DNA of 64,000 nt from positions 1-64,000 of the forward strand of contig JAHFUR010000023.1 of NCBI GenBank assembly GCA_023264995.1, written 5' to 3'. Position 1 is the first letter of the stretch. Every line of letters starts with the position of its first letter. Source of the DNA: Acidimicrobiia bacterium. GTDB taxonomy: Bacteria > Actinomycetota > Acidimicrobiia > Acidimicrobiales > AC-14. Both the position numbers and the translations under genes were made by a program. This document shows positions 1 to 49,727 of this stretch, one piece after another. The notes below the pieces were generated by a model. That model was given only the letters and a program-made list of their open reading frames with translations. It did not search any database and was not told the DNA's origin.

Positions 1-272
1 GCGAGGCCGGCGGCCGCCAGCACCGGCCTCGGCCCGGCCCGCACGCCGAGCAGGACGGCGCCGGCGCCGAGAGCGGCCCGGGCGCCGGCGTCGAGCGGCG
101 CCCAGCCGCTCGGTTGGCCTGACGCGAGGATGGCGACGACCGCGCTGGCGCCGGCAACCGCGAACACCCAGGCCCGCAGGCGGTCAGTCGCCATAGGAGA
201 CAGGACGTAGAGAAGGAGGGCGCCCCCCGCGAGACCGACCGTCTCCGCCAGGACCAGCCCGAGCACGATCAC
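1..272 (-). CDS. Membrane protein, 5' part only (runs off left edge)
   Basis: The reverse strand is open from a GTG at 272 to the window edge, about 90 codons. The peptide begins MIVLGLVLAETVGLAGGALL and shows at least two hydrophobic segments (about residues 2-26 and 36-52), then an Ala/Gly-rich stretch. A purine-rich GAGGG lies just upstream of the GTG. It is divergent from the chain-length regulator at 352. I do not recognise the family from this fragment. Membrane location is inferred from hydrophobicity; the rest of the gene is outside the window. Confidence 0.5.
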   Translation of the reverse strand, partial: MIVLGLVLAETVGLAGGALLLYVLSPMATDRLRAWVFAVAGASAVVAILASGQPSGWAPLDAGARAALGAGAVLLGVRAGPRPVLAAAGL

Positions 273-7729: not shown

Positions 7730-10700
7730 CCGGGCCGGTGCATACGCGGCGACCTCGTAGACCATGGCCGGGCCGTACCAGGGTTGGGTCGGGTCGGCCA
7801 GCGTGCCGGCATCCTGTGGCCAGAACGCCGGGCGCGCGCCCCCGAAGTAGCCGCCGTAGTTCACGACCACCCGGTCGACTCTGATCTCCGTCACCGTCCT
7901 GGCCGTGAACGCGACCACCCGGCGCCGTTCTCGGAACTCGTCGCGCACCCGGCCGACGGTCGTCCAACGCCCGCCGCCGTCACGGACGCTGATGTCGTAG
8001 CTCCGCAAGCCGGGCACCACGCTCCCCAGCGAGTGGGTGGACACCACCACCCGGTCCACGGTCGTCGGCGAACCGAGGGCCACCGTGATCGAGGGTGCCG
8101 GGTCATCGGGAGCCTGGGCCCATGCCGAGAGGGCCCGGAAATCGCCTTTGCCCTGAGCATCGGCCACACCGTCGATGGCCGCGGCGGCCGGGTTGCTCGG
8201 TAGCTCGCTGGAGGCGGTGGCACGGGCGCCCGCGACCGCCGCGGCGACGTCCGGACCGAACGCCTCGACCGCCCTCAGCTCTGGCGGGGTGCCGCCGGCG
8301 AACCGGAGGTAGCGCGGCGACCCGTCGACCGTCATCGTGACCTGCCCTCCCGCTGGCCACCCGCCCAACGGAGCGCCCATGACGTCGACCAGGTCCACGG
8401 GAACGCCTGACCGGGCCCGGAGCGCGGTCCGCACGTCGTCGGCCCACACCACGATGACGCCGTCGATCGAAGGTGCGCCTGGCCGGGCACCGAACTGGGC
8501 GGCCAGCACAAGAGGATCGCCCGTCTCAACCATCCGCACCAGCGCCCGGCCCGCAACCATGGACCCGTAGGTCATGGCCGCGAGAGCCGCCGGTTTCACG
8601 GCAGAGGCCGCACGCGCCGTCGGGGTCTGGATCAACGAGTAGCTGAGGCCGAAGTCGCCATAGCCGCCCTCGGTGATGAAGTAGCTCCACTTCTCCACGC
8701 CGGCCTGACGGAGCAGGACCTGGGCCCGCACCAGCTTGTCGGCCTGGCTGAAGTAGTTGGCCGGCCCGTCGGACCACCACGCGCTCTCGGTGTCCCAGAC
8801 CGGCATCGCCGGCACTCCGTGGGAACCGAGCAGCGCGGCGAAGCGCCCGAGGAGCTCGGGGATCCCCTGCTCCTCGAAGGACCGGTTATGGCCGGTGTAG
8901 GGGTGGATCCCGGCGACGTCCATGAGGGCGAACCCTCCGGCCCTCCCGATGGCATCCCAGTAGGTCAGGTCCATCTCCAGCACGCTCCCGCCGACGACTC
9001 GGGCGCCGGGGTCAGCCGCCCTCACGCTCTCGAAGACGGGACGCAGGACCCGGTCGACGTAACGGTCGGCGGGGCCCAGGGTGTTGTTCGGCTCGTTCCA
9101 CGCCTCCCACACCGCGACATCGTCCTTGAAGTGTTCGACCACCTCGCGCACCCGCGCCCCCCATGTCCCGTCGTCGACGAGTGTCTTCTCCGGCCCGTTC
9201 CCGCCCAGGAGGACATCGAGGGTCACCCCGTTCGCCGCCGCCAGCCGGGCCGCTTCCTTGATCCTCGCGTCGGCGGCCGAGAAGTCGAGGGGCGCCGACG
9301 ACGACGAGCCCGAGAGCATCGCCTGCCAGTCGAGCGTCGCTCTGACCAGGTTGAACCCGAGGGCGTGGGCCACCGCCACCGACCGGGCCGGGCTCGGTCC
9401 GCCGAAGTCCATACCGGGAGGCAACGTCGAAAAGTCCAGGGTGTCCGCCGGCGTGCCGATCGAGTAGTAGCCGCAATCGGCGCCGACTACATTCCCCGCC
9501 TTCAGGAGCCTGGCCTGGACCTCGTAGTACCCGGGCCCTGGTGGCGGCAGGTCGAGCTGCACCGCCATGTCCGTCCCCGTCCTGGGCACGGCGAACCGTG
9601 TCGGCTTCGGCATCTCTCCTCGAAGGACCTGGCCGTGGGTACGGACCGTGTACTCGCCCTTGAGCTCACCGGCGACCGCCGCCCACCAGGGCTCGAAGGT
9701 GATCATGACCGCTGGCGCCCGGCCGGCGGGAAAGTACCCGCCCGGGGCCGCCGTCTCGATGCCCGCGCCCACCCCGAGCCTCGGTGTCACCGACCGGTTG
9801 CTGTCGACGAGCGCCCGGAGCTCATCGGGTGTGACCCACGACACGCCTTGTGACCGCGAAAACGGGCGTCCCGTGGCGTAGTAGATGCGACCGCCGAGCT
9901 GTTCCATCGGCGCCCCCTGGGTCATCGTCCCGATCGGCCCCTCGTCGCTCGCCAAGCCGACGTACAACCCCTCGTCGGTGAAGGCCACCATCCCGTTCCC
10001 AGCGCTGGTCACGTAGATGGTGCCGTCGGGCGCCCTCGTCGCCCCGCCCATCACCCGGAGGTGGAAGGGACCGTTGGCGTTGTCGTCGAGCGATGAACCG
10101 AAGGTCGACACGAGGGCGCCGCCCCGGTTGTAGAGGCGAATGAAGTGGCCATCGGTGCTGACCACCTCCCCGTCGAGCGGGTCGACGCTGATGTGACGGC
10201 CGACGACCGCGCTACGGCCTACGAGGTCGCCATCCATGTCGAACAGATCGGATCCCGTCGAGCTGTCGGCACGGACCACGACCACCCCCACGCGGAACCC
10301 GCCCCGGGTCGCTTGGCCGAACACGCCGGCACCGGACACGCCGCTTGCCGGCCGGGCCCACACGAGTGCACCCTCCGGCGAGAACTTGTACAGCCCGCCG
10401 TCGCCTGCGACGTAGACGCTGCCCGACGGGTCGACCGCCAGTGAGGGCCGCAGCCCGGGCACATCAAGGCGAAAGGACGACTGTCGCGCCATCGGCTCGA
10501 GGCCGTACACCACGATCTCGCCTCCGTCGGTGAGCAGGTACAGCTGATCGGGACGACCACCCGAAGCGGCACGCAGCCTGAGGCTGGCGATGCCAAGGCC
10601 GCTTCCCGGTCCAGAGATCACCACGTGGGCGGCTCCGATCGGGGCCGGCCCCCGAGCTCGGCCTTCGTCGCCGCGGGCGCCGCACGGCGCTTCGACCGGT

Positions 10701-49155: not shown

Positions 49156-49626
49156 CTAGGTGAAGCGTACGAGGGCGAACGCCAGGGCGGCCATGGTGAG
49201 CACCACGCTGACCATCCCGAACACCATGGTCATGGTCTGGCCCCGCAGCTCGTGCTCGAAGGTGGCCCGGAGGTCGGCCAGGCCGCCCTTCAGCCGGTCG
49301 TCGAAGGCGTCGAAGCGCCAGTCGAGGGCCTTGAACCGTTCGTCGATCCCCTTGAAGCGCTCGTCCAGGCCTTTGAAGCGCTCTTCCATGGCATCGAAAC
49401 GCAGATCGACTGCGTCGAAACGGAGGTCGATCGCCCCGAAACGGTCGTCGACCCGGGCGAAACGCAACTCGAGCCGGTCCTCGAGGGCGGCCAGGTCGTG
49501 CCTGGTGGCCACGTCGGCCCACCCCACCCGCGGGAGGTGCTCGATCAACGTGGTGGCCGCATCGGGGCCGAGGACTTCCTCCAGCCGTCGGTAGAGCTCG
49601 TGACGGGACCGTTCATCGACGACCAT
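49156..49626 (-). CDS. Coiled-coil membrane-tail protein under a LexA box
   Basis: 156 residues from ATG 49626, preceded by GGAGGAGGCGATC. The N-terminal ~45 residues are globular (ERSRHELYRRLEEVLGPDAA). Then comes an uninterrupted coiled coil of about eight heptads built on DxRFDA/ERFKG repeats (DRFGAIDLRFDAVDLRFDAM as an example). A C-terminal membrane helix follows (MTMVFGMVSVVLTMAALAFA). It resembles DUF1640-type coiled-coil tail-anchored proteins. The promoter upstream contains a perfect LexA box, so expression in the DNA-damage response is predicted. The function is unknown. An open extension upstream runs through the promoter and into thrC and is rejected. Confidence 0.8.
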   Translation of the reverse strand: MVVDERSRHELYRRLEEVLGPDAATTLIEHLPRVGWADVATRHDLAALEDRLELRFARVDDRFGAIDLRFDAVDLRFDAMEERFKGLDERFKGIDERFKALDWRFDAFDDRLKGGLADLRATFEHELRGQTMTMVFGMVSVVLTMAALAFALVRFT

Positions 49627-49698
49627 GATCGCCTCCTCCAACTGCGGACCGCAACAGATGGAGAGCGTTCGTCGCCCGCTCCCGAGGGCGTCGGCGGT

Positions 49699-49727
49699 AC
49701 CGTACTCGAACACACGTTCGAGTACAA
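49699..49727 (-). promoter_or_regulatory. SOS promoter: LexA box between -35 and -10
   Basis: On the plus strand TCGAACACACGTTCGA (49706-49721 within 10-bp arms GTACTCGAAC and GTTCGAGTAC, 49702-49725) is a perfect match to the Gram-positive/actinobacterial LexA box CGAAC-N4-GTTCG. On the minus strand the box fills the 17-bp spacer between TTGTAC (49727-49722) and TACGGT (49704-49699), so bound LexA would block RNA polymerase. The site lies 73-101 bp before the coiled-coil gene's ATG and 9 bp past the thrC stop. Confidence 0.85.

Follow-up and report, generated by a model that had tools for sequence, protein, structure and literature searches.

A candidate LexA-controlled gene for a tail-anchored coiled-coil membrane protein in an Acidimicrobiia bacterium

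Results

A LexA box within the promoter of a coiled-coil gene

Taking promoter and protein architecture together, we consider it probable that a gene encoding a coiled-coil membrane protein with a tail anchor, located within a 64,000-nucleotide stretch of Acidimicrobiia DNA (the window), is repressed by LexA and induced by DNA damage. Its LexA box, CGAACACACGTTCG (CGAAC-GTGT-GTTCG), matches the consensus CGAAC-N4-GTTCG at 10 of 10 core positions and is held in the 17-bp spacer TCGAACGTGTGTTCGAG (49721-49705) between a -35 and a -10 hexamer (Table 1). The original prediction described such an arrangement, a perfect box between TTGTAC and TACGGT at 73-101 bp before a gene for a protein of about 156 residues with heptads and a C-terminal membrane helix. 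The order and coordinates of these elements agree with our reading, the distance is correct for the ATG start codon at 49626 on the minus strand, and the 156-residue protein shows heptad-like repeats and ends in a hydrophobic helix. The palindrome around the box is longer than described, covering 24 bp (49702-49725; GTACTCGAAC-GTGT-GTTCGAGTAC). The actinobacterial LexA box is tCGAAC-N4-GNNCGa in Streptomyces venezuelae (PMC9380542), and with a box of this clade type in its promoter the window gene qualifies as a candidate member of the LexA regulon.

Table 1. Positions of the promoter, leader and protein features of the window gene.
Feature	Position	Strand	Remark
-35 hexamer TTGTAC	49722..49727	minus	sequence reading
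LexA box core CGAAC-N4-GTTCG	49707..49720	.	16-mer TCGAACACACGTTCGA at 49706-49721
-10 hexamer TACGGT (TAnnnT)	49699..49704	minus	exactly 16 nt downstream of the first box base
Leader hairpin TCGGGAGCG...CGCTCTCC	49660..49685	minus	pattern search
Shine-Dalgarno GGAGGAGG	49632..49639	minus	complementary to CUCUCC of the leader hairpin
Tail-anchored coiled-coil CDS, 156 aa (P0001)	49156..49626, stop included	minus	translation
P0001, head	residues ~5-30		
P0001, neck VATRHD	residues 39-44		
P0001, coiled-coil stalk	residues ~42-130		
P0001, membrane helix	residues ~134-152		

The bare box is only moderately informative. By chance, 0.08 perfect boxes are expected in the window, and 8 of 100 dinucleotide shuffles of the window contained one. 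Pattern searches of the whole genome detected 18 perfect boxes, while the same half-sites at other spacings (spacer 5 to 30) occurred at a mean of 5.6 per spacing, so that about one third of the bare boxes could be due to chance. The case is carried by the position of the box and by its conservation.

Predicted LexA regulon of the genome

LexA is encoded in this genome with both of its domains. Perfect boxes precede recA, dinB, dnaE2, ruvC and a gene for a uvrD-like helicase, and another precedes lexA, from which a gene for a LysM membrane protein is transcribed divergently. Boxes are also located before genes for a dnaQ-GIY-YIG protein and a DUF5131 protein and before three DUF222-type genes. 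The presence of boxes before recA, lexA, dinB, dnaE2 and ruvC, together with the perfect box in the window promoter, resembles the known actinobacterial LexA regulon.

The three DUF222-type genes (L005, L008 and L012) each carry the perfect box within the promoter, and the promoters of L005 and L012 are near-identical; an HNH domain was confirmed by Pfam in L012, the one gene of this type that was scanned. Six other perfect boxes (L011, L003, L004, L010, L013 and L014) are followed by genes for the DUF5131 protein, an HTH-domain protein or a small membrane-like protein, or by no clear gene, and some of these may be chance sites. The recA gene (L016/L167, G000:C62 about 8000-10200) contains an intein-like insertion of the LAGLIDADG endonuclease type; upstream of it, a LexA box is combined with a RecA-NDp-type promoter, a dual arrangement as in mycobacteria.

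Conservation of the box among paralogues and homologues

Besides the window gene, this genome contains two close paralogues, and in all three genes the box lies 77-80 bp before the ATG, the range being 77-79 bp in the two paralogues (10/10 matches for the window gene and C23:7605, 9/10 for C23:18863). Screening of 60 relatives, together with 79 loci of GTDB genomes, yielded 89 distinct leaders, and within this set the box was detected in only two further homologues; L049 (G027) belongs to a different family within the order, and L132 (apparently the G474 locus) to a different order. The boxes of L019 and L132 carry one mismatch each. In each of the five carriers, the box begins exactly 16 nt ahead of TAnnnT. 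In-register boxes thus occur in 5 of the 89 leaders vs 0.016 expected, and 856 kb of locus sequence, counted on both strands, contained one in-register site outside these five. The leaders therefore suggest that one identical promoter position holds a LexA box in three or more lineages, the present one among them. Genome-wide enrichment of the box is weak in G027 and G474, where spacing 4 accounts for about 11 of 30 sites in the former and 12 of 32 in the latter, and other single spacings can equal it in frequency.

The box is absent from most of the 89 family leaders and from the leader of the closest same-genus relative, G002, in which it has been lost or was never there; we therefore regard the LexA box, on the leaders compared, as lineage-specific within the family. 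In a rough tree, built from few columns and with unsettled bootstraps, the box-carrying members are scattered over three or more positions. Since this tree requires at least three changes, the box was not assigned to a single clade. Conservation upstream of orthologues, as originally proposed, is thus found for both close paralogues and for two other genera but fails for G002 and most of the family. Control of the window gene by LexA is well supported computationally by the boxed SOS genes and by the conserved register in three paralogues and two genera.

A probable second damage operator in the same register

Damage responses of actinobacteria run through LexA and PafBC. In word counts on the box-less leaders, GTCACA stood out. 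The full element, GTYRYA-N9-TAnnnT, was present in 15 of 89 leaders at N9 (0.09 expected) and in none of the 89 at N6-N8 or N10-N12. With a leave-one-out matrix, TGTCRYA-N9-TAnnnT was detected in 36 of 89 leaders vs 0.43 expected. This element shares its register with the LexA box. None of the 89 leaders carried both strict operators, and about half of them had neither at the thresholds used. The window gene lacks the TGTCR...TAnnnT promoter, the LexA box alone being present in that register.

In mycobacteria, the RecA-independent damage promoter is tTGTCRgtg-8nt-TAnnnT (PMC5656591), and this RecA-NDp promoter is used by PafBC (PMC6789036). The family element shares with it TGTCR as well as the 16-nt register to TAnnnT, and differs in reading TGTCRYA where mycobacteria have TGTCRgtg; the window gene differs in carrying the LexA box instead. 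In the present genome, 10 of 12 sites of the strict pattern were found at N9 (N7-N11 scanned). The strict motif precedes recA, uvrB and genes for UvrD-like helicase, SSB-like, ComM-like and ComF-like proteins, as well as two Uma2 genes, a PAS-domain gene and a distant C69 paralogue. The two Uma2-family genes with RecA-NDp-type promoters (L161 and L162) encode putative restriction endonucleases. The only two WYL genes found in the genome lie after a pafA homologue; by position and domain they are probably pafB and pafC. With the motif at fixed spacing before recA, uvrB, uvrD-like and ssb-like genes, and with a pafA-WYL-WYL locus in the genome, many box-less members can be assigned to a putative PafBC regulon. 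The family is therefore likely to be damage-inducible, under predicted control of either PafBC or LexA, and the PafBC-type promoter in many box-less members supports, on a wider basis, a role in the damage response.

Leader of the coiled-coil gene

The leader of the window gene (49627-49692) and those of the family (85 leaders) contain a hairpin with an anti-Shine-Dalgarno stretch. Of the four genomic occurrences of the hairpin pattern TCGGGAGC...GCTCYCC, three lie before this coiled-coil family. In 85 leaders the pyrimidine stretch pairs with its own Shine-Dalgarno sequence better than with swapped ones (p 5e-5), but the upstream-to-Shine-Dalgarno control in the swap test also reached p 0.015, and the pairing is therefore kept as a side observation. 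The upstream hairpin showed no excess over the swap control across all leaders (p 0.32), the leader of the window gene does not fold with unusual stability (z -0.37), and no Rfam family matched the leader. Translational control through the leader is a possible additional layer.

Architecture of the protein family

AlphaFold2 (pLDDT 94) predicts two head helices (residues 5-19 and 21-30), a loop and one long helix (42-155), and hydropathy of the last 40 residues indicates a C-terminal hydrophobic helix with few residues beyond the anchor, so that the bulk of the protein should be cytoplasmic. Among 77 aligned members, total length ranges from 85 to 206 aa and stalk length varies, nearly all end in the hydrophobic helix, and conserved positions are concentrated in head and neck (R8, L15, G20, A24, L27, L31, P32, G35, W36, V39, A40 and D44).

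The neck VATRHD, near-invariant in the family, is beta-layer-like. The beta-layer consensus marks DUF1640 membrane proteins (PMC4786415), and VATRHD, where the stalk begins, fits [aliphatic]-A-T-K-[polar]-[DE]; the protein also ends in a membrane helix. The layout of head, neck, stalk and C-terminal membrane helix is the same as in the DUF1640/CCDC90-like proteins (PF07798; mitochondrial MCUR1 and CCDC90B, yeast Put6 and Put7, prokaryotic 6h9l). In contrast, the window protein scored 13.3 bits against the Pfam CCDC90-like family, far under the gathering cut-off of 33.5, and 3 of 12 members matched PF07798 weakly (best E 0.0042). A profile of the family finds the solved prokaryotic structure 6h9l over neck and stalk (E 1.3e-5), but apolipoproteins, unrelated coiled coils, outscore it in the same search, so that coiled-coil composition contributes to this match. 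The structure 6h9l belongs to the MCUR1/CCDC90B study. The head segment gave no significant alignment in this search (-2.2 bits), and Foldseek with the monomer model detected no similar solved structure. On these comparisons we call the protein DUF1640-like rather than a DUF1640 member. We know of no description of damage promoters for the DUF1640/CCDC90-like family.

Locus

The coiled-coil gene is located between thrC and apgM, all three on one strand, and apgM starts about 10 bp past the coiled-coil stop. Since the 3' end of thrC lies upstream, the target of the box should be only the coiled-coil gene and possibly apgM; read-through from thrC is another way in which the coiled-coil gene could be transcribed. 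In G001 and G002, thrC and apgM are separated by a gap of about 70-110 bp that lacks this gene. An operon role in threonine synthesis was rejected on the absence of the gene from this site in the two genomes. The gene presumably moves alone, accompanied by its own promoter and leader. The thrC-apgM interval is 728 bp in G004 (L148), with an opposite-strand frame resembling alpha/beta hydrolase, and about 1.3 kb in G003 (L147); the junction looks insertion-prone. An origin from phage or prophage was also rejected, as viral contigs contain no relative and phage matches concern the coil only; the PHROG matches are coil-dominated families of unknown function.

Discussion

The box, the promoter register, its conservation, both regulons and the fold class are supported computationally, and from these we infer LexA and PafBC binding, damage induction, a trimer and a role of the protein. 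LexA bound within the -35/-10 spacer would block RNA polymerase, and LexA cleavage stimulated by RecA would open the promoter after DNA damage. The protein would then be inserted into the membrane by its C-terminal helix, with stalk and neck oligomerising (the analogy with beta-layer proteins makes a trimer probable) and the small conserved helical head facing the cytoplasm. Among possible roles we favor that of a membrane-proximal scaffold or checkpoint, which might adjust an envelope process, either division or growth, while damage is repaired; the checkpoint role taken alone has a rather low probability. A more far-reaching, still tentative reading, given slightly under an even chance, is that the tail-anchored beta-layer coiled-coil family of Acidimicrobiia and related Actinomycetota may be a dedicated membrane effector of the damage response, in which one promoter position is owned by either the PafBC activator or the LexA repressor with repeated swaps, possibly with a further, translational layer of control by pairing between leader and ribosome-binding site.

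A classic SOS cell-division inhibitor such as YneA, SosA or SidA would share the SOS control, the small size and the single membrane helix of the window protein, and such inhibitors occur in many phyla. The layout is the opposite, however: nearly the whole protein, a predicted cytoplasmic coiled coil without LysM, precedes a C-terminal anchor. In addition, the LysM membrane protein divergent from lexA is of the usual SOS division inhibitor type and already supplies a YneA-like layout in this genome, and we regard this identity as unlikely. Somewhat less likely again is a mobile, selfish single-gene cassette, the damage promoter of which would serve its own spread and not repair. The empty thrC-apgM site in G001 and G002, decayed copies in the same two genomes, the presence of several dispersed copies in a genome (up to eight matches in G042) and the DUF222-HNH nucleases among the other LexA-boxed genes are in agreement with such a cassette. 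Against it, the neighbourhood showed no nuclease, integrase or phage gene, similarity to phage proteins is limited to the coiled coil with no relative in viral contigs, and the conservation of head and membrane anchor across very divergent relatives suggests a host function.

The box might finally be a chance palindrome in a GC-rich genome, before a gene that is constitutive or read through from thrC. Both the frequency of perfect sites expected per spacing genome-wide and the shuffled windows with a box of their own allow for it, but the box fills the promoter spacer exactly, its register is identical in both close paralogues and two other genera, and in other family members the second damage operator occupies that register. 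Chance is accordingly very improbable, and LexA control of the window gene is retained as the preferred reading.

In the literature searched, we found no LexA regulon described as including a tail-anchored coiled-coil family. The protein looks like a damage-response effector of a new kind, from an unstudied protein family. According to the Streptomyces LexA study (PMC9380542), clear homologues of established SOS division regulators are missing from this genus, and some mechanism yet to be identified has to link repair with division. A membrane family placed repeatedly under LexA or PafBC is a candidate output of the damage response at the envelope. It would give the bacterial DUF1640-like proteins, the mitochondrial relatives of which are already studied, their first biological context, and the operator swap at one register would represent a gene moving between activator-type and repressor-type damage circuits.
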